Below are positions 32,331 to 64,000 of a stretch of DNA of 64,000 nt, piece by piece. The DNA comes from Paenacidovorax caeni. Its GTDB lineage: Bacteria > Pseudomonadota > Gammaproteobacteria > Burkholderiales > Burkholderiaceae_C. How positions within the stretch are numbered: position 1 is the stretch's first letter; each line of letters starts with the position of its first letter. The DNA lies in assembly GCF_001298675.1 (NCBI RefSeq), contig NZ_CYIG01000015.1, positions 1-64,000 on the forward strand, written 5' to 3'. The notes under the pieces are model-generated. The model worked only from the letters and a program-made list of their open reading frames with translations. It was not told the DNA's origin and ran no database searches. A program made the translations under genes and the position numbers.

Positions 32331-32424
32331 ATCAAAAAGAGAGCTGCTTGCGCTTGATTGGTAAGGATTCAAGGCTTTTAACCACCTCAAACCCTTTACC
32401 AGCAAGCGCTAGCAGCTATGCTTT
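32331..32424. repeat. Interspersed palindromic repeat, long two-arm copy, after mdh
   Basis: The left arm AGCTGCTTGCGCTTGATTGG (32342-32361) and right arm CAAGCGCTAGCAGCTAT (32403-32419) form a long imperfect hairpin. It ends directly at the mdh stop and may act as its terminator. It is the best two-arm copy of the repeat family. Confidence 0.75.
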
Positions 32425-51399: not shown

Positions 51400-53376
<1,977 letters not shown>

Positions 53377-53476
53377 GGGCGCGGATTGTAGTGCGGCAGG
53401 CGCCGCCTCACTGGATGAAAAAACAGGTTGTCAAGGGCGCGCTGCAGAGTTTTCCCGGATTGGCTACATTCGCACG

Positions 53477-54694
53477 ATGCATAAACAAAATCAAAAACTG
53501 TCTATAGGCCAAGTGCTGGCCTGCGGGGGACTCATCGTTACGCTGTCCATGGGCATTCGCCACGGCTTTGGCCTGTGGCTGCAGCCCATGACGCAAGCAA
53601 TGGACTGGACACGCCAGGACTTCGCCCTGGCCATCGCCGTGCAAAACCTGGTGTGGGGTTTCACGGGCATTTTCGCGGGCATGCTGGCCGACCGCTTCGG
53701 CGCTTTCAAGGTCATCGTCGGCTGTGCGGTTCTTTATGCGCTGGGACTGGTGGGCATGGCGTATTCGGCCACGCCGCTGGTGTTTGCCATCACGGCCGGG
53801 GTACTGATCGGCATGGCCCAGTCGGGCACCACCTACGCGGTCATCTACGGTGTGATCGGCCGCAACGTTGATGGCTCGCGCCGCTCCTGGGCCATGGGCA
53901 TCGCTGCGGCGGCGGGCTCATTCGGGCAGTTTTTGATGGTGCCGACCGAAGGCTGGCTCATCAGCCAGTTTGGCTGGCAGCAGGCGCTGGTGCTGCTGGG
54001 CATGGCGGCGCTGCTCATCGTGCCGCTGGCGCGTGGCCTGCGCGAGCCCGGTTTTGCTGGCGGTGCCCTGCTGAAACGCGAGCAAACCATTGGCCAAGCG
54101 TTGCGCGAGGCGTTCAGCTACCCCAGCTTCCAGCTGCTGATGGCGGGCTACTTCGTCTGTGGTTTTCAGGTGGTGTTCATCGGCGTGCACCTGCCCAGCT
54201 ACCTGAAGGACCAGGGCCTGTCGCCCCAGGTGGCCAGCTATGCGCTGGCGCTGGTGGGCCTGTTCAACGTCATTGGCACGTATGCCGCCGGCTCGCTGGG
54301 CCAGCGCCTGCCCAAGAAGAACATCCTGGCCTTCATCTACTTTGCGCGCTCGGTGGTCATCACGGTGTTCCTGCTGGCGCCGCTGTCGCCGATGAGCGTG
54401 TACCTGTTTTCCGCCGTGATGGGCATGCTGTGGCTGTCCACCGTGCCGCCAACCACGGCCGTGGTGGCGCAGATTTTTGGCGTGGCCCACCTGTCGATGC
54501 TGGGCGGATTCGTCTTCTTCAGCCACCAGATCGGCAGCTTCATGGGCGTATGGCTGGGTGGCTACCTGTACGACCGCCTGGGTAGCTACGACATTGTGTG
54601 GCTGCTGACCATCGCACTGGGCGTGCTCGCGGGCCTGGTGAACTTGCCTGTGCGCGAAAACGCCATCCAACGCGCAGCCCCCCAAGGCGCCTGA
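53477..54694 (+). CDS. Major facilitator superfamily transporter (monocarboxylate/oxalate-like)
   Basis: A 405-residue membrane protein with twelve predicted helices. The loop 2-3 motif AGMLADRFGAFKVI and the duplicated SLGQRLPKKNILAF fit the MFS. The N-terminal QVLACGGLIVTLSMGIRHGFGLW is like OxlT/monocarboxylate porter members. The substrate is unknown. The start lies 98 bases from the divergent parE. There is no Shine-Dalgarno, and TACATT ends six bases before the ATG, so a leaderless start is possible. It is followed after two bases by a small membrane-peptide gene. Confidence 0.85.
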   Translation: MHKQNQKLSIGQVLACGGLIVTLSMGIRHGFGLWLQPMTQAMDWTRQDFALAIAVQNLVWGFTGIFAGMLADRFGAFKVIVGCAVLYALGLVGMAYSATPLVFAITAGVLIGMAQSGTTYAVIYGVIGRNVDGSRRSWAMGIAAAAGSFGQFLMVPTEGWLISQFGWQQALVLLGMAALLIVPLARGLREPGFAGGALLKREQTIGQALREAFSYPSFQLLMAGYFVCGFQVVFIGVHLPSYLKDQGLSPQVASYALALVGLFNVIGTYAAGSLGQRLPKKNILAFIYFARSVVITVFLLAPLSPMSVYLFSAVMGMLWLSTVPPTTAVVAQIFGVAHLSMLGGFVFFSHQIGSFMGVWLGGYLYDRLGSYDIVWLLTIALGVLAGLVNLPVRENAIQRAAPQGA

Positions 54695-54696
54695 CC

Positions 54697-54822
54697 ATGC
54701 CCAGCAAGCGCCAGGCCCTCGCCTACGCTGCAGCCCTGGTGGCGTTGCTGGCGGTGTTCGGGCTGTACACGCAGCCCGAGTTCCTGATCACCCTGGCGGA
54801 CCAGCTCTGGGCGTGCTTCTAG
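54697..54822 (+). CDS. 41-residue single-pass membrane peptide
   Basis: ATG two bases after the MFS stop opens a 41-codon frame. The peptide has a basic start (MPSKRQ), one hydrophobic helix (ALAYAAALVALLAVFGLY) and a polar tail TQPEFLITLADQLWACF. The close coupling and clean membrane-anchor design suggest a real gene, perhaps a small partner of the transporter. I do not know a name for it. Confidence 0.55.
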   Translation: MPSKRQALAYAAALVALLAVFGLYTQPEFLITLADQLWACF

Positions 54823-54891
54823 CGTGAATCGCTCCCGGCTTGTGCGAACGCCCGCTCTGTGAACCCAGGTATCGCCTAGCGCCAGCGAGCA

Positions 54892-55389
54892 TCAGGGCAC
54901 AGGGCCACGCGAATCCTTGGCGTTGGCAGTGGCGGAAGCTGATTTGCGCAGCCAGCGCATCAGTCCGCCCAGTAAGGGAAATTTTTCGTACAGCTCCTCG
55001 GCGGCATCCCAGTAGTCGCGGTGCAACGTCACACGCCCCTGCGCATCGAAGCGCACCAGGGTGGCCCCGTGGATGCATTGCACCACCTGCGGCCGCCAGC
55101 GGCGCATGCGAAAACGGAACTCCCAGCCCAGAAAAGCCTGGTCGCCTTGCTCGATATGCTGGGTCACGGTGAAGCGCGGCTCGTCCAGCGTGGCGAACAT
55201 GTGGGCAAAAATCTGTGCGATGGCTGGCACGCCGCGCACGTCGTTGAAGGGGTCCTTGAAGCGTGCGTCAGGCGCGTAATAGGTGTCCAGCGCGGCCAGA
55301 TGGGTCGGCGACAGCTGCTCGTAAAACGCGATCAACCGCTGTGCAGCGGATGGCGTATCGGCGCTGGCGATGGGAGGCAACGTGTCCAT
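54892..55389 (-). CDS. SnoaL-like/NTF2-fold protein
   Basis: A 165-residue NTF2-like protein. The start MDTLPPIASADTP is two bases after the SDR stop. The fold is suggested by LIAFYEQLSPTHLAALDTYYAPDARFKDPFNDVRG, the alternating strands with FLGWEFRFRMRRW, and the closing VTLHRDYWDAAEELYEKFP. Members are small-molecule isomerases, cyclases or binding proteins. It is the last gene of the chalcone-isomerase-like / MFS / DUF3833 / SDR operon, so it probably handles the same lipid or lipid-like intermediate. The frame is open far upstream but only this part looks coding. Confidence 0.8.
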   Translation of the reverse strand: MDTLPPIASADTPSAAQRLIAFYEQLSPTHLAALDTYYAPDARFKDPFNDVRGVPAIAQIFAHMFATLDEPRFTVTQHIEQGDQAFLGWEFRFRMRRWRPQVVQCIHGATLVRFDAQGRVTLHRDYWDAAEELYEKFPLLGGLMRWLRKSASATANAKDSRGPVP

Positions 55390-55391
55390 GT

Positions 55392-56174
55392 TCAAAGCCC
55401 GGTGATACGGTGCACGAGGGGGAAATACCAGCGGTAGGGCAGGCAGCGCATGAGCTTGAGTACGCCCGTGAAGCGCTTGGGAAAGTGCATTTCGAACTGC
55501 CCCCGCTCCCAGCCGCGCACGATGGCCTGCGCTGCCTGCTCGGGCGTGAGGAGCGCCGGCATGGAAAATTGGTTTTGCGCCGTCAGCGGGGTATCGACGA
55601 AGCCAGGGTTGACCAGGCTGACACCCACCCCCTGGGGGCGCAGGTCCAGAAACAGGTTTTCCGCCAGATTGATCAGCGCCGCTTTGGTGGGGCCGTACGC
55701 CAGGCTTTGCGGCAGGCCACGCCAGCCGGCCACGCTGGCCACCAGGCTCAGGTGCGGCGTACGCCCCGCCGCTGCCGCCTGAACCAGCGCGGGCACCACG
55801 GCCGCCAGTACCTGCAGCACCCCAGTGACGTTGACGCGCTGGTGCCGAAGCAGTTCGGCCAGATCCAGTGCGTTGGCCGACATCGGGCGGTAGTGGCCGG
55901 CGCAGTAGCACACCAGATCCAGCGGTGCCGCCGCGAGCAGTTGCTGCGCCGCACTGGCGACGGCCTGCGCATCGGTCACATCCAGCACCAGCGCCTGGCT
56001 GCCAGGATGCTCGCGCACGAAGGCGTCGAGCAAGCCTTGCTGGCGCGCCGACACACACACCTGCGCGCCACGCGCATGCAGCAGCGCAGCCACGGCACGC
56101 CCAATGCCGCTGGACGCGCCGATCAGCCACACACGTCGGCCCCGCCAGTCGGTGATGGGAGGGTTGAGGGGCAT
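55392..56174 (-). CDS. Short-chain dehydrogenase/reductase
   Basis: A 260-residue classical SDR. The cofactor motif VWLIGASSGIG is near residues 15-25 (TGxxxGxG type). The catalytic Ser lies in LVASVAGW and the Tyr/Lys pair in YGPTKAA. The C-terminal PKRFTGVLKLMRCLPYRWYF is basic and hydrophobic and may touch the membrane. It sits between a DUF3833 lipoprotein gene and a SnoaL-like gene. NAD(P)-dependent oxidation or reduction of a lipid-derived alcohol/ketone is a reasonable guess. Confidence 0.87.
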   Translation of the reverse strand: MPLNPPITDWRGRRVWLIGASSGIGRAVAALLHARGAQVCVSARQQGLLDAFVREHPGSQALVLDVTDAQAVASAAQQLLAAAPLDLVCYCAGHYRPMSANALDLAELLRHQRVNVTGVLQVLAAVVPALVQAAAAGRTPHLSLVASVAGWRGLPQSLAYGPTKAALINLAENLFLDLRPQGVGVSLVNPGFVDTPLTAQNQFSMPALLTPEQAAQAIVRGWERGQFEMHFPKRFTGVLKLMRCLPYRWYFPLVHRITGL

Positions 56175-56178
56175 GGCG

Positions 56179-56715
56179 CTACTCCTTGGAGAAAGACAGC
56201 AGCACCTCGCCCAGCGTGACGCCAAACTTGCTCATGGTGGCGCGGTTGAGCATCACACGCTCGTCAACCAGGAACATCCAGTCGTCAAACTGCACTTCAT
56301 ATTCCTTGCCGTCCACCGGCAGGCGCAGCGTGTAGCTCCAGCGGAAGGCATTGCCGGACGCCTGCCCCTGCGCCTCGCCCACCACGTCGTCGGCACGGCC
56401 GGTGTAGCGCCCGTTCTCGTGCTTGGTCAGACGCCACACGCGGCGCTGGGTGCTGCCGTCGGAATAGCTGAAGGCTTCGTCCAGCACGCCCTGGTTGCCT
56501 TGCCAATGGCAGTCCATCACCACCGTGAAGCGGCGCACCACCTCGCCACCGCGCTTCTGAAAAATGCCATGCGCATGGATACGGCCGTTGAAATAGCGGT
56601 CCAGCTCCAGGCTGGGCCGCTCCTGGGCATAGTCGCTCACCTGGGGGCTGGCGCACCCCGCCAGCACGGCCGAGCCCGCCAGCACGGTGAATAAGACACG
56701 GCGGCGTGTGTTCAT
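56179..56715 (-). CDS. DUF3833 lipoprotein
   Basis: A 178-residue lipoprotein. The signal peptide MNTRRRVLFTVLAGSAVLAGC gives the lipobox LAGC. The mature part, with LELDRYFNGRIHAHGIFQKR, FTVVMDCHW, EAFSYSDGSTQRRVWRL and YEVQFDDWMFL, matches DUF3833, a beta-rich domain of unknown function. Its ATG overlaps the stop of the MFS gene (ATGA). DUF3833 genes commonly sit in clusters with cfa-like, DUF1365 and SDR genes, as here. Confidence 0.85.
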   Translation of the reverse strand: MNTRRRVLFTVLAGSAVLAGCASPQVSDYAQERPSLELDRYFNGRIHAHGIFQKRGGEVVRRFTVVMDCHWQGNQGVLDEAFSYSDGSTQRRVWRLTKHENGRYTGRADDVVGEAQGQASGNAFRWSYTLRLPVDGKEYEVQFDDWMFLVDERVMLNRATMSKFGVTLGEVLLSFSKE

Positions 56716-58013
56716 GGTGTCACTCCTTGGGTACGGTGAGGGAAAGCGATCAACAGCCGATACAGCAGATAGGCGGCCATGAGCTTGAGCGCGCACGGCA
56801 GCAGCGCATAAATCCATGCCAGGCGTTGCAGCGCCAGCGGGTCTTGGCTGCCGGGCTGGTAGCCCAGCCATTGCAAAAGGGGCAGCGTCAGCCCTGCGGC
56901 CAATGCCAAGTTGAGCTTGGTGGCCAAGTTCCACCAGCCCAGGTAGGCGCCGTCGTGCACGCCTTGGGCGCCGTGGCGCTCGATCAGCAGGGCCAGCAGC
57001 GCACCCGGCACGGCCAGGTCAGCGCCCAGCGCCGCCCCCGACAGCACGCAAATCAGCCCAAAGGCCACCACCTGGCCGCTGCCCAAGCCAGCCGCCCAGC
57101 CAAAGCAGGCCACAGCCACCAGCATGCCGGCAAGCCACGCCCACTCCAGCCCGAGGCGACGCACGACACGCACCCAGAGGGGCATGGACAACGCCCCGCT
57201 GACGAAATAGAGCACCAGAAACAGCGCGATGTGCGCCTGCGTAGCCAGTAACCGGTCCTGAGCGAAGAACAGCATCAACGCGGCCGGTATGGCGCTGGCG
57301 ATGCCATTGCACAGGAACACCGCCAACAGCCGCCGGAAGGCGGGCTCGGCCAGCGGCTGCCACAGCCGCGCCTCGGGCGCTTGCCAGGCCCCTGCGGCAA
57401 ACCGTGGACGCGGCGCACGCCACAGCGCCCACCAGCCGGCTACCAGTGCCAGCGTGAACACGGCCAGCATGGTGCCCGCCCCCCACGCCACAGACAGCGC
57501 GCTGGCCGTGACCACGCCCACCAGCCCGGCCCCTTCGCGCCAGGCCACGATGCGGCTGCGCTGTGCGGCATCGCCCCCCAAGCGCACGCCCCAGGCCTGG
57601 TGGGTAATCACCAGCAAACTGTGCGCAAGGCAGGTGAATAAAAGCCCTGCCACCATCCACGCCGCCAGCGCGGCAGGCCCTTGCACGCGCGGGAAAAACA
57701 GGCCGGCCATGCCCACCCCCAGCAGCAGCACCAAGAGCCCCGCCATCCACAGCACGGCATGCACGGTACGGTGGTAGACCCGGTCGCTCAACCGCCCCAG
57801 CAGCGGTTCGGCCCCCGCATCGATCAGGCGCACCAGCATCAGCAACGCGCCTACCGTGGCCAGCGACAGGCCACGGTCACTGGCGTAATAGTGCGGCAGC
57901 ACCACATACAGCGGCAGTGCGGCAAAGGCCAGGGGCAAGCCCAGCAGCCCATAGGCCAGGCCCGCGCGCCAGGGCAACACTTGCGAGGCGTTCCATGGCA
58001 AGGCACGGGTCAT
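56712..58013 (-). CDS. MFS transporter of the light-regulator-type cluster
   Basis: A 433-residue, twelve-helix transporter resembling the GPH/melibiose-type and PucC-like MFS groups. The sequence LLMLVRLIDAGAEPLLGRLSDR carries the GPH-like Asp-containing motif of helices 2-3. The start MTRALPWNAS overlaps the stop of the chalcone-isomerase-like gene. It may export or flip the lipid product of the pathway. No direct evidence identifies its substrate. Confidence 0.8.
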   Translation of the reverse strand: MTRALPWNASQVLPWRAGLAYGLLGLPLAFAALPLYVVLPHYYASDRGLSLATVGALLMLVRLIDAGAEPLLGRLSDRVYHRTVHAVLWMAGLLVLLLGVGMAGLFFPRVQGPAALAAWMVAGLLFTCLAHSLLVITHQAWGVRLGGDAAQRSRIVAWREGAGLVGVVTASALSVAWGAGTMLAVFTLALVAGWWALWRAPRPRFAAGAWQAPEARLWQPLAEPAFRRLLAVFLCNGIASAIPAALMLFFAQDRLLATQAHIALFLVLYFVSGALSMPLWVRVVRRLGLEWAWLAGMLVAVACFGWAAGLGSGQVVAFGLICVLSGAALGADLAVPGALLALLIERHGAQGVHDGAYLGWWNLATKLNLALAAGLTLPLLQWLGYQPGSQDPLALQRLAWIYALLPCALKLMAAYLLYRLLIAFPHRTQGVTP

Positions 58014-58603
58014 GGCCCTGCTCCTGGTTGACGCGCCAGCAAGGCGCTGCGCAGGCCAGGTTCGGAGGTGCGGGGCGAGAGCCAAATGCCAAAGAACAAG
58101 CGGGCCAGCTCCGCGTCGCCAATAGCACCCAGCGCCTGGCTACCTCGCCACAGGCGCATGCCTTGCTGGGGCAGGTAAAGGCCGGTGAGCCGGTCACCCG
58201 GCTGGACATCGGGCAGCAGGGTCGCCAGCTGCTGCTGCCAGCGCTCGGCCTGCGCAGGGGCCAGTGCCGTCTGGCGCTGGATTTCCTCGATGGAGCGCCG
58301 CGCGATGGCCGCGCCGGTGAAGGCGCGGTGATAGGTCAGCTCCAGCGCCAGTGGGTGGGCGCCGAAGGCGTCGGCCTGAAAGCCCGGGGTCACCCACAGG
58401 CGCGCATCGTAGATACGCAGGCCGAGAAAGCGCATCTGCCCTTCGCCAGCCAGCGTGGCATCTGCCAGCGACTGGTGTACCCAGGGGGGCGCGGCATCGC
58501 TCCCAGGCCCCACTGCCGGGTTGGCTGCCGCAGCCGCCAGAGCGACGGCGGAGAGTGCCGCCAAGGCCCAGCGTTTGAGTGATGAAATTTGGCTCTGAGG
58601 CAT
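58010..58603 (-). CDS. Chalcone-isomerase-like exported protein
   Basis: A protein of about 197 residues with a signal peptide (LKRWALAALSAVALAAAAA). A chalcone-isomerase-like domain follows, recognised by RFLGLRIYDARLWVTPGF, ALELTYHRAFTGAAIARRSIEEI and LTGLYLPQQGMRLWRG. Bacterial members bind fatty acids or act in the periplasm; they rarely isomerise flavonoids. It is the first gene of the five-gene operon. The leader contains a half-copy of the interspersed repeat. The start is ATG 58603; a TTG two codons upstream is possible. Confidence 0.8.
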   Translation of the reverse strand: MPQSQISSLKRWALAALSAVALAAAAANPAVGPGSDAAPPWVHQSLADATLAGEGQMRFLGLRIYDARLWVTPGFQADAFGAHPLALELTYHRAFTGAAIARRSIEEIQRQTALAPAQAERWQQQLATLLPDVQPGDRLTGLYLPQQGMRLWRGSQALGAIGDAELARLFFGIWLSPRTSEPGLRSALLARQPGAGP

Positions 58604-58607
58604 ATGC

Positions 58608-58632
58608 AAAGCGCGCTAGCAGCTATGGTTTT
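58608..58632. repeat. Half-copy of the interspersed repeat upstream of the chalcone-isomerase-like gene
   Basis: AAGCGCGCTAGCAGCTATGG (58609-58628) with GTTTTTGATA matches one arm of the family. The other arm is missing. Confidence 0.6.
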
Positions 58633-58643
58633 TGATACACCAC

Positions 58644-60308
58644 CTAGACGGCGGCACCCGGCAAACGCAAGGCCAAGGGCGATGGCGCCAGCGACGCGGA
58701 GGATGCCCGGCGTGCAGCGGCGGCCTGTGCGCTCCCCTGCGCTGCCTGCGACAGGTGAAACACACTCACCACCTCCGCCAGTTGCGCCGCCTGCTGCTTC
58801 AAGGCTTGTGCAGCCGCCGCACTTTGCTCGACCATCGCAGCGTTTTGCTGCGTGGCGCGGTCGAGGTGGGCCACGGCATCGCCCACCTGGGCAATGCCTT
58901 CGGTCTGCTCTGCGGTGGCGTTGCTGATTTCGGCAATCAAGTCCGCCACGCGTTGCGCCTGATCGACGATATCGGTCATGGTGGTGCCCGCATCGCCCAC
59001 CAGGCGCGCGCCCTGCTCCACCTTGGCGACGCTGCTGTCGATCAGGCCCTTGATCTCCTTGGCGGCGTCCGCACTGCGCTGTGCCAGGGCGCGCACTTCG
59101 CCCGCCACGACGGCGAACCCCCTGCCCTGCTCACCGGCGCGTGCGGCCTCCACGGCGGCATTGAGCGCCAGAATGTTCGTTTGGAAGGCGATGGCATCAA
59201 TCACGCCAATGATGTCGGACATCTTGTGGCTGCTGGCGGTGATTTCATCCATGGTGCTGACCACCTGAGCCACCACGGCCCCGCCCTTGTGCGCGGCTTC
59301 GCTGGCGGAGGCCGCCACTTGCGTGGCCTGACGGGCGGACTCGGCGTTGTGGCGCACCGAGGCCGTCATCTGCTCCATGGAGGAGGCTGCCTGCTGCAGG
59401 TTGGCCGCCTGCTCTTCGGTGCGCTGCAACAGCCCGGTGTTACCGCCTGCAATCTCTTCGGAACCCGTTGTGACCGCGTTCGACGCCTGGCGCACCTGGC
59501 CCACCACGCGGGCCAGGCTGGCCTGCATGGCGCCCAACGAGGCCAACACACTGCCAGGTTGCGCCTGGGCGGCGCCGGCCACCGGCTGCAGGTCGCCCTG
59601 GGCCACATAGCTGGCGACTTCGGCCAGCGCCGTGGGTTCTGCGCCGAGTTGGCGCACGATGCTGCGTGCCACGCTCCACGCCACGACCGCACTGATAAGC
59701 AAGGCCAACGCCAGCGCCGTGAACATGACGCCCAAGAAGCTCTCGGCCTCGTCCATGGCTGCCTTGTTGGTCTTTTGAATGCGCGCTTCCTTGAAATCAA
59801 TGAGCTTGTTGATCGCCGCCAGCCACTGCACGTACTGGGGCTTGGCCTGTGTCCACAAGGTCTGGGCGGCGGCGGTATCGCCGGCCTGCACCTGGGCAAT
59901 GATGGCCTGCGTAGAGGCCACCGCCTGGGACTCGGCGCTGCGAATCTCGGCATACAACTGCCCGAGCTCGGGCGCCGCGCCGGGGCGGGTGATGAGCTTT
60001 TCCAGCGGCGCCGCGGACTGTGCGTAAAAGTCAGCCAATGCGCCGATGGTGGCGATCTCCTTGTCGCGCTCGGCAGGTGTAGGGCTTAGCACCACATCAC
60101 GCACAGCGATGGAGCGGTCATGGGCGGAGCCGCGAAAGTTGATGGCGTGGCGCTGAACCTGGGCGTGGATGTCGCTGTTGACATGCAGCGCATCCGCAAT
60201 GCGGTTGACCTTCACCACAGCGATGCCCGTGAGCACGACCAGAAGCGCCAAGATCAGCCCGAACCCCACGTACAAGCGGGTAGCAACTGCCATTCGTGAG
60301 AAAAACAT
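58644..60308 (-). CDS. Methyl-accepting chemotaxis protein
   Basis: A 554-residue receptor. The N-terminal transmembrane helix (about 11-31) is followed by a 4HB_MCP-type sensor with [20 protein letters not shown]. The second helix is near 195-215, with HAMP about 215-265. The signalling domain has [20 protein letters not shown], and a short tail follows with no xWxxF tether. AAGGA supports the start. It separates two operons that otherwise look like one pathway, and shares its signalling core closely with the receptor at 47067-48872, so the two are paralogues. Confidence 0.93.
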
Positions 60309-60386
60309 ACGGAATCCTTTAGCGGAGGAGGAAAGTCTTTGCTGTAGACAGCAAGGCTGGATAACCAAATTGCGCTTGCCTGCGCG

Positions 60387-61622
60387 TCAATCTCGCACCA
60401 GCGTGTACTGAACCACGTCGATGCTGCCGGCATCGAATGCGGCCTCGCAGTACGCCAGATAGAACTCCCAGGTCCGCTGGAAGGCTGGGTCAAACCCTTG
60501 CGCCTGCACCTGGGCACGCCGCTGGGCAAAACTGTGGTGCCACCTGCGCAGGGTTTCTGCATAGTCGGCGCCGAAGGCGAACTCCTCGACCACACGCAGC
60601 CCGGCCTGCCGGGCCGCCGCACGAAAGCGCTCAGGACTGGGCAGGCAACCGCCAGGGAAAACGTATTGCTGGATGAAATCCGTGCCCCGCACATAGCGCT
60701 CGAACAGCCTGTCGTCGATGACGATGCTTTGAATGCAGGCGCGCCCACCGGGTTTGAGCAAACGCGCCACGGTGCCAAAGTAGCTGGGCCAGAAGGCCTG
60801 GCCAACCGCCTCGACCATCTCGATGGAGCAAATGGCGTCGAACGGTGCATCCTGGATATCGCGGTAGTCCTGCAGGCGCAGCTCCGCCTGGGCGGACAGC
60901 CCGGCCTCGTGCAAGCGCTGGCGACCAAACGCCAGCTGCTCGGTGGAAAGCGTCACGCCGGTCACATGGGCCTGGAACTCCCCCGCTGCCATCTCGGCCA
61001 GCGCGCCCCAGCCGCAGCCAATCTCCAGCACGCGGTCGCCCGGCTGCACGCCGGCGCTGCGCAAGGCGCGGCGCACCTTGGCGTGCTGGGCAGCCGTCAA
61101 ATCGCCCGCCAGATCGCCCTGGAACCAGGCAGACGAGTAATTCATGCTCGGGTCCAACCACAGCGTGTAGAACGCGTTGCCCAGGTCGTAATGGGCGTGG
61201 ATGTTGCGCCTGCTGCCGGTGCGCGTGTTGCGGTTGAGCAGGTGGCGCAGCCGGTAGGCCAGCCGCCCCCACCAGGCGCCATAGACCAGCGACTCCAGCG
61301 CATCGCGGTTGGCCATCAGCAAGCGCAGCAGGTCGGCCAGGTGCGGCGTGCTCCAGTGCTGGTCGATATAGCCCTGCGCCAGACCAATGTCGCCCGAACG
61401 CAGCACCGCGCCGAACACCTGCCAGTCGTGCAGGCGCAGGCTGGCGTGCGGGTGCCCTCCCGGGCCAAATAGCAGGGCGGTGCCATCGGGCAGCTCCAGG
61501 TGCAACGTGCCGTGCTGCAGCCGCTGCAAGTGACGCAGGGCATGTCGGGCCGTACTGGGCAAGTCGGCTGGCAACGACAACGGCAAGGGCAACGAGATCG
61601 GTGTCGAGGTGGTGGTGTTCAT
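60387..61622 (-). CDS. Cyclopropane-fatty-acid synthase-like SAM methyltransferase
   Basis: A 411-residue class I methyltransferase of the Cfa/Cfa-like family, expected to transfer a methyl or methylene group from SAM to a double bond of membrane phospholipid acyl chains. The SAM motif VLEIGCGWGALAEMA is near residue 200. IHAHYDLGNAFYTLWLDPSM, the family block with MNYSSAWF, and IEMVEAVGQAFWPSYF are diagnostic. The N-terminal lipid-binding region contains LHDWQVFGAVLRSGDIGLAQ. It follows DUF1365 by two bases. Because it sits in this cluster it may make a branched or furan-type precursor rather than a cyclopropane. Confidence 0.9.
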   Translation of the reverse strand: MNTTTSTPISLPLPLSLPADLPSTARHALRHLQRLQHGTLHLELPDGTALLFGPGGHPHASLRLHDWQVFGAVLRSGDIGLAQGYIDQHWSTPHLADLLRLLMANRDALESLVYGAWWGRLAYRLRHLLNRNTRTGSRRNIHAHYDLGNAFYTLWLDPSMNYSSAWFQGDLAGDLTAAQHAKVRRALRSAGVQPGDRVLEIGCGWGALAEMAAGEFQAHVTGVTLSTEQLAFGRQRLHEAGLSAQAELRLQDYRDIQDAPFDAICSIEMVEAVGQAFWPSYFGTVARLLKPGGRACIQSIVIDDRLFERYVRGTDFIQQYVFPGGCLPSPERFRAAARQAGLRVVEEFAFGADYAETLRRWHHSFAQRRAQVQAQGFDPAFQRTWEFYLAYCEAAFDAGSIDVVQYTLVRD

Positions 61623-61624
61623 GG

Positions 61625-62449
61625 TCAGCGGTCGGTTGCAGATGAACGGGTCACAGGCAGCACGGGCGCCTGCGGCTTGGCGTAAAACGGAACCTGCTTA
61701 AGCCACAGCAGCAATGCATTCCAGAGGATTCGGGCCGTTACGCCCAAGGTGAGCAGTGGGTAGCGCCACAGGGCACGCCGACGGCTGGCAGCATTGAGCG
61801 GCTCCAGCCGCCCGGCCATACCGGTGAGCAGCAACGGCCCCTCGGCATCGTGGTAGTCGATGCGCACCCGTGCGGATTGCAATCCCTCGGCGCCGCTGCG
61901 GCGAAATTCAAAGCGGTAGCCGCCCTCCACGGTGCAAAAGGGCGAAACATGAAATGCTTTGCGTGCCTGCAGTTCCTGCCCATAACGCGGGTGGTCCAGC
62001 AGGTAGGCGTGGCGCTCGCCAAAGGTGTTGTTCACTTCGGCCACGATGGCGCGCAGGCTGCCGTCCGTACGGTGGCAGTACCAAAAGCTCACCGGCTTGA
62101 AGCTGTAGCCCAGTACGCGCGGGTAGCACTGCAGCCAGATTTCACCCTGCGCGTCGGTAACGCCCTCGGCTTGCAGCAGTGCCTCCAGCCAGGCCAGTGC
62201 GCCGCCCTGCTGCGGGCCTTGCCCGGCGCCATGGTCGGCATCCCGAAACGCAAGCCATCCGGGCCGGTTGAGTGCCAGCACGCCTGCGGCATCGGGCTGC
62301 TCGCGCAGCGTGCGCATGGGCAGCAGCAAAAAGAAGGTGGGCACGATGAAACGGTGGCGGCGCGGGCGCAGCCGGGTGTGCCACACGTGGCCGAAGCCGA
62401 TGTGCGGCACATTGCGCCGCACGCCAGCACGGGGCGCGGGAGTGTTCAT
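61625..62449 (-). CDS. DUF1365 protein
   Basis: A 274-residue protein of the DUF1365 family. Signatures are HVWHTRLRPRRHRF near the start, YPRVLGYSFKPVSFWYCHR, AEVNNTFGERHAYLLD and KAFHVSPF. A short hydrophobic stretch near the C-terminus (LLTLGVTARILWNALLLWL) suggests membrane association. Family function is unknown. It consistently lies between an FAD oxidoreductase and a cfa-like gene, as here, with its ATG overlapping the upstream stop (ATGA). Confidence 0.9.
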   Translation of the reverse strand: MNTPAPRAGVRRNVPHIGFGHVWHTRLRPRRHRFIVPTFFLLLPMRTLREQPDAAGVLALNRPGWLAFRDADHGAGQGPQQGGALAWLEALLQAEGVTDAQGEIWLQCYPRVLGYSFKPVSFWYCHRTDGSLRAIVAEVNNTFGERHAYLLDHPRYGQELQARKAFHVSPFCTVEGGYRFEFRRSGAEGLQSARVRIDYHDAEGPLLLTGMAGRLEPLNAASRRRALWRYPLLTLGVTARILWNALLLWLKQVPFYAKPQAPVLPVTRSSATDR

Positions 62450-63756
62450 GCGGCCTCCCGGTAGCGCATGCGCATTTGTGCCAGCAGTGCATCGGCCGCG
62501 CGGTAACCCGATTGCAGGCCGTCCTCATGGAAACCGTAGCCTGTCCATGCGCCGGCGAACCAGGTCCGCTGCACACCTTGCAGCTCGGCCACCTGCTTTT
62601 GCGCGGACCAGGCACTCAGGTCGAAGACAGGGTGGTCGTAATCGAACTCGCCCAGGATCTTGGCCGGGTCGATAGGGCTCACGGGATTGAGCGAAACCAG
62701 CACCGGCTGCGCAAAAGGCAGGGGCTGCAGGCGATTGAGCCAGTAGTGCAAGCAAACCTGGGCCGACTCCTGGGCACCATCGGCAGCGCGCTCGTAATTC
62801 CAGGCGGCCCAGGCGGCCCGGCGCCGCGGCATCACACGGGTGTCGGTGTGCAGCACAGCCCGGTTGGGCTGGTAGCGTATGGCCCCGAGCACACGCCGCT
62901 CGGCAGCGCTGGGCTGCGCCAACAGGCGCAAGGCCTGGTCGCTGTGCACCGCCAGCACCACGGCGTCGAAAGGCTCGGTGACCCCAGCCGCTCGCACGGA
63001 CACGCCGGCCATGGTGCGCTCAATGTGCGTTACCGGCGTGGCCAGGCGCGCATCCAGCCCTTGCAGGATGGCGTGGACGTACTGGCGTGCACCGCCCGCC
63101 ACGGTGTGCCACTGCGGCCGGTTCTGCACCTGGATAAGGCCGTGGTTGTGGCAAAAGCGCACCATGGTGGCCACCGGGAAACGCAGCATCTGGTCGGTCG
63201 GACAGCTCCAGATGCAACCCAGCATGGGCAGGAAATACCAGTGGCGAAAAGCCGCGCCAAAGCCATGCTGGTCGAGGAAATCGCCCAGTGGCTGAACAAG
63301 CGCTTGTTCCTGCCCACTTTCGGCCAAGTCCGTACACAGGCGGTTGAAGCGCAACAGCTCGGAGAGCATGCCCCAGAACCGCGGGCGCAGCAGATTGCGC
63401 CGCTGGGCAAACACGGTTGCCAGGTTGGAGCCGCTCCACTCCAGTGCCCGGGCACCCAGTACGCCCGCGCCTGGCACCTGGACTGAGAACGACATGTCCG
63501 ATGGCGCCGTAGGCACCTGCAGCTCGGCCAGCAATGCAATCAGACCGGGATAGGTGCGCTCGTTGAACACCAGAAAGCCCGTATCCACCCCATGCGTCAC
63601 GGTGTGCCCATGGCGGTCAGGGAAAGACACATCAACCGTGTGCGTATGCCCACCGAAATAGTTGCCAGCCTCAAACAGCGTCACCCGCGCGTGCCCGCGC
63701 AGCCGGTGCGCAGCCGCCAAGCCCGAAATGCCCGATCCGATGACTGCGACTTTCAT
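62446..63756 (-). CDS. FAD-dependent oxidoreductase (amine-oxidase/desaturase-like)
   Basis: A 436-residue flavoprotein with an N-terminal Rossmann motif VAVIGSGISGLAAAHRL and FEAGNYFGGHTHTVDV. The middle contains HWYFLPMLGCIWSCPTDQML. The C-terminal FAD-binding signature is TWFAGAWTGYGFHEDGLQSG. The family is annotated NAD(P)-binding or amine oxidase, and relatives are phytoene-desaturase-like. In this operon it probably dehydrogenates a methylated acyl chain. It is the first gene, 63 bases from the palindrome that separates it from the MerR-type gene. Confidence 0.88.
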   Translation of the reverse strand: MKVAVIGSGISGLAAAHRLRGHARVTLFEAGNYFGGHTHTVDVSFPDRHGHTVTHGVDTGFLVFNERTYPGLIALLAELQVPTAPSDMSFSVQVPGAGVLGARALEWSGSNLATVFAQRRNLLRPRFWGMLSELLRFNRLCTDLAESGQEQALVQPLGDFLDQHGFGAAFRHWYFLPMLGCIWSCPTDQMLRFPVATMVRFCHNHGLIQVQNRPQWHTVAGGARQYVHAILQGLDARLATPVTHIERTMAGVSVRAAGVTEPFDAVVLAVHSDQALRLLAQPSAAERRVLGAIRYQPNRAVLHTDTRVMPRRRAAWAAWNYERAADGAQESAQVCLHYWLNRLQPLPFAQPVLVSLNPVSPIDPAKILGEFDYDHPVFDLSAWSAQKQVAELQGVQRTWFAGAWTGYGFHEDGLQSGYRAADALLAQMRMRYREAA

Positions 63757-63819
63757 GGGTTTTTGCTCCGTTGTGGTTGATGGTTCAGCACGATTGCGCT
63801 TTTCATGTGGCGTAATGTA

Positions 63820-63852
63820 CTAGACAAAACAAATTTTGTCCTAGACAATTAA
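63820..63852. promoter_or_regulatory. Palindrome and overlapping divergent promoter candidates
   Basis: GACAAAA (63823-63829) and TTTTGTC (63834-63840) form a perfect inverted repeat with CAAA between, and CTAG flanks both sides. CTAGACAA occurs twice (63820 and 63841), 21 bases apart. On the plus strand TAGACA / 17 / GACAAT fits -35/-10 boxes for the MerR-type gene. On the minus strand AGGACA / 17 / TACATT could serve the flavoprotein operon. A regulator bound here would cover both promoters. Confidence 0.6.
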
Positions 63853-63871
63853 TCCAACAAATCAATCAACC

Positions 63872-64000
63872 ATGAACTCTCCGACACCCCCCAGCGCCCT
63901 GTCGACGCCTGCATCCAGCGACGACGGCTTGCCGATTGCCGCCGTCGAACGCGAGACTGGGCTGGGCAAGGACACACTGCGTGTGTGGGAGCGGCGCTAC
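63872..64000 (+). CDS. MerR-type regulator, N-terminal part (cut by window edge)
   Basis: The first 43 codons of a protein running off the window. After an unconserved 18-residue leader, GLPIAAVERETGLGKDTLRVWERRY is a MerR helix-turn-helix of the kind found in regulators with a C-terminal B12-binding domain (CarH, LitR and related). The C-terminal domain is not visible, so the B12 link is inferred from this sequence type and from the neighbouring genes. It is divergent from the flavoprotein operon, and a palindrome in the 115-base gap suggests autoregulation. Confidence 0.75.
   Translation, partial: MNSPTPPSALSTPASSDDGLPIAAVERETGLGKDTLRVWERRY

Follow-up and report, generated by a model that had tools for sequence, protein, structure and literature searches.

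What does the tightly packed run of genes at the right-hand end of this DNA from Paenacidovorax caeni make, and what switches it on? The window, by which we mean the whole stretch analysed, comprises the first 64,000 bases of a contig of 78,994 bases (contig 15), and nine minus-strand genes run in it from 63756 down to 54892, a FAD (flavin adenine dinucleotide) amine-oxidase type gene first and a SnoaL type gene last (open reading frames and Pfam profile searches). An earlier note on this DNA had proposed light- or singlet-oxygen-responsive modification of membrane lipids under a MerR-type regulator. We conclude that the run is probably a light-controlled furan fatty acid operon, in which the regulator LitR, bound to AdoB12, would repress a photo-stress regulon of furan lipids and photolyases in the dark. 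This reading is built on what is seen here, namely gene content and order, domains, the motifs of LitR, an operator core that occurs only twice, predicted folds and family-wide conservation. The reactions, the binding of B12, the response to light and the repression would follow by analogy with homologues.

The first three genes point to the product. The run begins with a putative acyl desaturase of FAD/amine-oxidase type (ufaD-like, 436 residues, 62446 to 63756; Amino_oxidase, E = 1.2e-19), identified also by synteny and by LkcE, the closest solved relative of UfaD by sequence (2e-40). It is followed on the same strand by a DUF1365 protein (ufaO-like, 274 residues, 61625 to 62449; PF07103, 5e-78) and an S-adenosylmethionine-dependent methyltransferase of the CMAS family (ufaM-like, 411 residues, 60387 to 61622; PF02353, 2e-82). 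UfaM, UfaD and UfaO have been reported to convert a cis-vaccenoyl phospholipid to a methyl-furan fatty acid (Lemke et al., 2020; PMC7380195). In the same report, DUF1365 is a domain of UfaO, and RPA2571, RPA2570 and RPA2569 of Rhodopseudomonas palustris are UfaD, UfaO and UfaM and suffice for formation of 9M5-FuFA in a triple mutant of Rhodobacter sphaeroides. The gene order here, UfaD-UfaO-UfaM, is that of RPA2571-2570-2569, and the CMAS, amine-oxidase and DUF1365 genes are adjacent here and in all 39 judged loci of the family (40 loci were fetched around DUF3833, a gene further down the run, picked by rank and flank length rather than at random). A furan fatty acid pathway is thus very probably encoded here, as judged from these genes. 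The methylation and dehydrogenation of a phospholipid acyl chain foreseen in the earlier note are supported by the UfaM and UfaD types, and its less specific tailoring of the chain can be sharpened: because DUF1365 is the UfaO domain, the product is predicted to be a methyl-furan fatty acid.

The Cfa-like enzyme could instead make a cyclopropane or a plain methyl-branched chain, with the FAD and DUF1365 proteins doing something else. The best named models for the ufaM-like protein are cyclopropane synthases, although all fall under their cut-offs, and the light-induced Cfa-like protein VC1122 of Vibrio cholerae has been read as a cyclopropane fatty acid (CFA) synthase (PMC5241685). However, alignment to the CFA synthase of Escherichia coli (6bqc) places Ser opposite Cys and Gln opposite His in the ufaM-like protein, and the replacements extend to every readable row of the family alignment, with Ser in 37 and Ala in three of 40 rows at the Cys position and Gln in 39 of 39 at the His position (one row is gapped there). 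The two replaced residues (C139 and H266 in E. coli) belong to the bicarbonate site of CFA synthase. CFA synthase activity for 60387 to 61622 was set aside because of these family-wide replacements. Since the UfaD, UfaO and UfaM types also stand in one run in all 39 judged loci, we regard a cyclopropane or simple branched product as quite improbable.

Control of the run is suggested by the gene on its other side. The gene litR, for a MerR/CarH-type regulator, starts on the plus strand at 63872, 115 bp from ufaD, which confirms the divergent arrangement of a MerR regulator and the FAD/DUF1365/Cfa-like half described earlier. Its first 43 codons lie in the window (63872 to 64000) and it ends at contig position 64846 (locus L001). 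Read past 64000, LitR has 324 residues with a MerR helix-turn-helix (HTH; MerR_1, 1e-12), a B12-binding_2 domain (7e-6) and a B12-binding domain (2e-11), all over the Pfam cut-offs; the earlier note had named the lack of a B12-binding domain as a point against its proposal, and this does not apply, both such domains being present to the right of 64000. LitR aligns to CarH of Thermus (5c8d) over the HTH and B12 domains (3.5e-29) and has the motifs W-x9-EH and E-x-H-x2-G (W166, E176, H177 and H215). These are presumably the B12 contacts, their positions having been read from the CarH alignment. The W and H of the first motif are found in 21 of 22 family rows, as is the His of the second. Among 18 high-scoring LitR homologues next to the best 80 of 329 UfaD relatives, W-x9-EH occurs in 16 and E-x-H-x2-G in 17, counted anywhere in the frame. 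Two further B12-binding proteins of the genome score above the cut-off, so it does have B12 enzymes. By analogy with CarH, it is reasonably likely that LitR senses light through AdoB12. Directly 3´ of litR lies a lipocalin gene (L001:1166-1795), which is kept in four relatives (L034, L039, L047 and L215).

The 115-bp divergent promoter holds a predicted LitR operator at 63816 to 63848, of the form TGTACTAGACAA-N9-TGTCCTAGACAA, with the core TTGTCTAGGACAA on the minus strand at 63836 to 63848. There are exactly two copies of this core in the 4.19 Mb genome, against about 0.1 expected for a random 13-mer by a rough estimate. The second is at position 67397 of contig 4, before genes for a photolyase (PF00875, PF03441), a photolyase-related protein (PF04244) and a short-chain dehydrogenase/reductase (SDR), and over the extended operator 27 of 33 bases agree between the ufa-side and photolyase-side copies. 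The contig 4 region (67397 to 67610; L199:4898-5111) has the exact site and then a one-mismatch copy about 200 bp on, and a frame of 153 residues without a Pfam match lies between these sites and the photolyase genes. Two close relatives have such genes next to litR: beside lipocalin and litR there is a photolyase gene in L039, and photolyase, photolyase-related and SDR genes in L047. It is as if the present genome had moved the photolyase genes away and kept the operator. More broadly, of the stretches fetched, 7 of 21 with LitR contain photolyase-type genes, as does 1 of 19 others (p = 0.046), some of these matches being weak (27% in L033).

The shorter pattern TTGTC-N3-GACA follows litR across the family. 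It lies upstream of ufaD in 8 of 20 LitR-adjacent loci, the present one included, and in none of 17 others (p = 0.004; three of the 40 fetched loci were dropped, either because the start could not be set or, in one, because ufaD was missing). Before the ufaD genes of the best 80 of 329 UfaD relatives, it occurs in 6 of 18 LitR-adjacent loci and 0 of 62 others (p = 6e-5). Calls based on hidden Markov models miss overlapping frames (four genes in L216, against eight by tblastn in L068, which its length of 249687 marks as apparently the same contig), and the counts of LitR motifs and of TTGTC-N3-GACA in the best-80 set are therefore lower bounds; this set and the 40 family loci share at least one contig. 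From the operator pair, LitR is likely to control both the ufa promoter and the photolyase locus. The light-type MerR control of the earlier note thus stands as a prediction, supported by both B12 domains, the contact motifs and an operator core common to the photolyase locus. A one-mismatch copy of the core also lies inside the litR coding sequence (L001:485-497; contig 15, 64184 to 64196). A copy is seen at a similar distance in L200 and L201; it may be an auxiliary site or reflect coding conservation.

Several observations weigh against the reading of a light-controlled furan fatty acid operon under LitR. The putative orthology to UfaD, UfaO and UfaM is drawn from domain, order and residues. 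Allowing one mismatch, the core has four matches in the genome, where the reversed control has one and a rough count from the bases predicts about five, so that only the exact pair is striking. The core is lacking in 12 of the 20 LitR-adjacent loci. In eight relatives searched for the exact core, three have the ufa-side copy only and five have none, and conservation of the photolyase-side copy is therefore unsupported; four of these five have a near match before ufaD, and the fifth, the sole other genome of the genus, lacks DUF3833. No litR is adjacent in 18 of the 39 judged family loci, which makes other control possible. Regarding LitR itself, the residue after the motif Trp is Val, where Thermus CarH has a His that is the second ligand in the light state, and it is M, A, V or L in 20 of 22 family rows. 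Finally, LitR scores 124.8 bits with the NCBIfam equivalog model for CarH (NF052513), against a curated cut-off of 400, for which reason we call it LitR/CarH-type and not CarH itself.

The points on LitR leave some room, a minor share of the probability, for a variant in which the pathway is read correctly but LitR answers to B12 status or works via a partner, in the way that class II LitR uses a short LOV protein. The missing His and the low CarH score would fit such a regulator, and the class II LitR of Pseudomonas is described as needing no B12 (PMC9758184). On the other hand, both B12 domains and the contact motifs are kept here, unlike in the one-domain class II proteins (PMC9758184), and the operator core is common to the photolyase locus. 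Far less probable is control by sigma-E/ChrR with litR as a bystander. This is the known control of the RSP1091-1087 operon in R. sphaeroides (PMC3818230; PMC6852236), and ChrR/sigma-E has been reported to shape the blue-light response of V. cholerae (PMC5241685). In the present 152-contig assembly, however, the best match to the ChrR anti-sigma model reaches 14.2 bits, against a cut-off of 124.5, and lies inside a frame of 1356 residues; one of 14 control genomes passed the cut-off in the same search. With no ChrR match above the cut-off, we discount control by sigma-E/ChrR in this genome. Control by LitR through AdoB12 remains our preferred reading.

Is the remainder of the run part of the same system? 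The earlier note described two tight minus-strand operons. Its eight genes, their strand and their packing are confirmed (top Pfam E-values from 7e-10 to 2e-82), but a gene for a methyl-accepting chemotaxis protein (MCP) between the halves had been overlooked, and the halves form one run in 38 of 39 judged relatives. The gaps along the nine genes are -4, +2, +78, +40, -4, -4, +4 and +2 bp. At E = 0.001, 84 of the 150 genomes of the family have DUF3833, among them the present one, and 83 of these pass the cut-off. All 39 judged loci contain the UfaD, UfaO, UfaM, chalcone-isomerase, DUF3833 and SDR types, and 38 each the MFS and SnoaL types (L055 has no MFS match and L058 no SnoaL match; L040 is cut by a contig end). 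The cluster is not due to chance: in 37 of these 39 loci the eight genes stand in an identical order and orientation. litR stands divergent in 21 of them.

The MCP gene (58644 to 60308, minus strand, 554 residues; MCPsignal, 1.7e-52; 4HB_MCP_1, 2.3e-9) is separated from ufaM by 78 bp and from the chalcone-isomerase-like gene by 40 bp. Apart from the present genome, it occupies this place in L034, the exception among the judged family loci, and in Acidovorax delafieldii (L215), and it is absent from L039 and L047. A. delafieldii is the closest among the best 80 of 329 UfaD relatives (81%), and it has lipocalin, LitR and the complete nine-gene run in unchanged order. In tblastn identity, LitR, UfaD (88 against 79), UfaO, UfaM, MFS, DUF3833, SDR and SnoaL of the present genome are closer to those of L039 than to those of L034, yet L039 has no MCP, whereas for the chalcone-isomerase-fold gene behind the MCP, L034 (78%) is closer than L039 (69%). 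This pattern fits a joint transfer of the MCP and the neighbouring chalcone-isomerase-fold gene between related species. A short repeat of TAGCTGCTAGCGC type occurs at window positions 32406, 42838, 51358 (where the last 12 bases match) and 58613, the last copy being inside the 40-bp gap between these two genes.

The last five genes encode, all on the minus strand, an exported chalcone-isomerase-fold protein (58010 to 58603, 197 residues; Chalcone_3, 7e-10), an MFS_2 transporter of GPH/MelB type (56712 to 58013, 433 residues; PF13347, 4e-37, with MelB itself matched only at 0.012), a DUF3833 protein with a lipoprotein-type N-terminus (56179 to 56715, 178 residues; PF12915, 3e-72), an SDR (55392 to 56174, 260 residues; adh_short, 1.9e-30) and a small SnoaL_2-type protein (54892 to 55389, 165 residues; SnoaL_2, 5.6e-18). 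AlphaFold predicts DUF3833 (alignment of 63 sequences, pLDDT 95.8) as a ten-stranded antiparallel barrel, which fits the calycin/lipocalin-like barrels of about 8 to 10 strands. The model is matched best by chloroplast BFA1 (Z 16.7, rmsd 2.5, 133 residues), and next in score are a DUF3598 protein (15.6), OssO, which is a spirocyclase (14.7), the nitrobindins (about 14) and, lower down, fatty-acid-binding proteins (about 10). Since a designed transmembrane barrel reaches 15.6 as well, the fold of DUF3833 alone is weak evidence for function. The chalcone-isomerase-like model (51 sequences, pLDDT 89.8) matches plant chalcone isomerases (CHI; Z 16.8, rmsd 2.7, 162 residues) as well as AtFAP1 (14.7) and AtFAP3 (14.5), two fatty-acid-binding proteins of plants; over the plant CHI, CHIL and FAP entries matched, Z is 14.5 to 16.8 and rmsd mostly 2.6 to 3.2. 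The same alignment, used as a profile against PDB sequences, gave no match up to E = 1. Two predicted lipid-capable folds beside a membrane transporter suggest lipid handling.

The earlier note considered that this five-gene half may be undescribed, and here we differ. The MFS, lipoprotein and SDR types are those of RSP1089 to RSP1087 in the sigma-E operon of R. sphaeroides, and Pseudomonas loci whose order resembles that of the light-induced pmlR1 cluster include the SnoaL and SDR types. Published annotation makes RSP_1089 a GPH-family symporter and RSP_1087 an SDR (PMC7074977), and the Pseudomonas syringae match of RSP_1088 is a lipoprotein (PMC5507510). From gene order and this lipoprotein-annotated match, RSP_1088 would be of DUF3833 type. 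The open-licence literature searched, as far as its text was available, gives no function for the five genes, DUF3833 and chalcone isomerase-like included.

An unrelated lipid or solute transport set that merely shares the promoter is a possible, though less favoured, account of these five genes. Single deletions of RSP1087, RSP1088 and RSP1089, the counterparts of three of them, are reported to leave the fatty acids of R. sphaeroides unchanged (PMC7380195), a result that also counts against our reading. In a scan of the phylum, DUF3833 was found in 113 of 398 genomes, and among 40 of these loci picked for breadth, ufaD, ufaM and ufaO were each nearby in only 16, the chalcone-isomerase type in 12 and MFS in 11. 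In contrast, 37 of 39 family loci keep the eight genes side by side, ufaM shares 4 bp with the chalcone-isomerase-fold gene in 6 of the 15 loci with a computed gap (starts being uncertain in others), and the partners recur, differently ordered, in loci of Pseudomonas, Vibrio and Rhodobacterales. Thus, among the best 80 of 329 UfaD relatives, several Pseudomonas loci read LitR-PHR-SnoaL-SDR-UfaD-UfaO-UfaM, Marivita (L290) reads UfaD-UfaO-MFS-DUF3833-SDR, a Rhodobacterales locus (L283) has an order similar to the R. sphaeroides operon without a DUF3833 match, and Vibrio (L278) and Veronia (L263) read SnoaL-SDR-UfaD-UfaO-UfaM-gap-CHI-DUF3833. In two loci of the Vibrio-type order, a DUF2878 membrane protein fills the gap between ufaM and the chalcone-isomerase-fold gene (L109:10841-11401; L115:10753-11253) and no MFS was found, which suggests that membrane partners are exchanged.

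Since fatty acids are unchanged in the three deletions, furan lipid synthesis can probably do without the last five genes, which would probably act after it. The chance that they handle furan lipids or their oxidation products is, in our estimate, about even. RSP_1089 to RSP_1087 were restricted to Rhodobacteraceae in one comparison (PMC3818230). As far as domain and order identify them, the MFS, DUF3833 and SDR types are found here well outside that family, and their role is therefore worth testing after singlet-oxygen damage and not in synthesis. One speculative possibility, which we hold at rather long odds, is that lipids are scavenged and recycled: a reactive ene-dione lipid would be bound by the exported chalcone-isomerase-fold protein and the calycin-like lipoprotein, moved across the inner membrane by the MFS_2 transporter, reduced by the SDR and SnoaL proteins, and reused. 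If true, this would amount to a light-switched repair cycle for furan lipids in the membrane, acting after singlet oxygen opens the furan ring.

Taken together, the locus suggests the following course of events. In the dark, AdoB12-bound LitR would sit on the operator between litR and ufaD and on the second copy before the photolyase locus. In the light, the Co-C bond would break, LitR would leave the DNA, and furan-lipid enzymes and photolyases would be made. UfaM would methylate a cis-vaccenoyl phospholipid, UfaD would then desaturate it, and UfaO would add O2 so that the methyl-furan ring closes. A scavenging role reportedly stands in the title of a 2014 paper by Lemke et al. The furan lipid would take up singlet oxygen, which is known to destroy furan fatty acids (PMC6852236), while photolyases mend DNA. 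The last five gene products may transport furan lipids, or the compounds formed by their oxidation, through the envelope and reduce them.

Apart from the proteins, a structured, strongly covarying RNA element of about 100 nt was met upstream of ufaD in 21 of 37 scored family loci (L036, L041, L043, L050 and others), the present locus not being among them. In the alignment of the 21 sequences, 15 of 21 pairs show two-sided changes and 94.6% of cells are paired, none of 500 shuffles is as good, and sliding the partner reduces pairing to 50% or less. One hairpin loop is a polypyrimidine (anti-Shine-Dalgarno-like) run such as TTCTCCTCCTCCCTCCCTCCCTCC. Searches with the RNA model (both large ones with stricter filters) found a single copy in each of 109 of the 150 family genomes and hits in 3 of 274 genomes drawn from the class, all three from this family. 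The present genome has its copy on contig 5 (85179 to 85272; L171:5180-5273). Where genomes have both, the RNA is 5.3 to 6.2 kb from DUF3833, which by distance is the start of ufaD, in 40 of 58. Nevertheless, presence of the two is independent (58 genomes with both, 25 with DUF3833 only, 51 with the RNA only and 16 with neither; p = 0.46), and a leader of the ufa operon was rejected on this ground and because the present copy is on contig 5. The downstream neighbour of that copy is a GST gene on the opposite strand, so the RNA looks like a free-standing small RNA.

Rfam gave no match at the gathering score in eight family loci and none up to E = 1 in window positions 53000 to 64000. Up to E = 5, five of the RNA loci gave 11 matches, all far under gathering and nine of them to eukaryotic or viral families; the two bacterial ones, both overlapping the 3´ end of the RNA at L140:1567-1641, are STnc50 (E = 4.3) and Thr_leader (E = 1.7), each with 23 bits where gathering requires 55. 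Burkholderia and Bordetella have small RNAs rich in C and U that cover ribosome-binding sites (NcS27, S17; PMC5688073; PMC11722255), but those of Burkholderia are described as double hairpins, unlike this RNA in shape. A literature search for a CU-rich RNA of Comamonadaceae found no matching paper. Upstream of the RNA and ufaD, loci without litR such as L042, L043 and L054 have a gene that, judged by eye from its sequence, is glutathione-peroxidase-like.

How, then, does the locus compare with known systems? The furan pathway of R. sphaeroides (UfaM, UfaD and UfaO: RSP2144, RSP1091 and RSP1090) and R. palustris (RPA2569, RPA2571 and RPA2570) has the same three protein types. Here these stand in one run with five accessory genes, beside LitR instead of sigma-E/ChrR and with an MCP inserted. 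A further likeness is to the RSP1091-1087 sigma-E operon, with UfaD, UfaO, a GPH symporter (MFS), a hypothetical protein or lipoprotein and an SDR in that order, as here. It lacks ufaM, the chalcone-isomerase-fold gene and SnoaL, and its control differs. The pmlR1 region of Pseudomonas mendocina has phrB, SDR, FAD oxidoreductase, ufaM and hypothetical genes, and expression near pmlR1 and pmlR2 is reported to be light-induced (PMC9758184); the light-inducible pplR1/pmlR1 cluster of Pseudomonas likewise holds LitR, phrB, SDR, FAD oxidoreductase and ufaM (PMC9758184). The class II LitR proteins of Pseudomonas (PplR/PmlR) are described with a LOV partner, one of the two B12-binding domains and TGTACA-N12-TGTACA sites (PMC9758184). 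The present LitR has both domains, and its site contains TGTAC but has a TTGTC-N3-GACAA core. With class I CarH/LitR of Thermus, Bacillus and Myxococcus it shares the HTH, B12-binding_2 and B12-binding domains and the motifs W-x9-EH and E-x-H-x2-G, although that class is described mainly for carotenoid production (PMC9758184) and the targets here would be furan lipids and photolyases. The strongly blue-light-induced VC1122 of V. cholerae (PMC5241685) is of the Cfa-like type found here. The Vibrio-type locus L278 has Ufa genes, CHI and DUF3833 and no MFS, and in V. cholerae sigma-E/ChrR and another MerR protein act.

In conclusion, a LitR with both B12 domains is likely to be a third control of furan-lipid genes, beside sigma-E/ChrR and class II LitR, and the two exact operator sites predict a regulon that can be tested. 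Set beside these systems, the locus is a new arrangement of a known defence against light stress and not a new kind of system.

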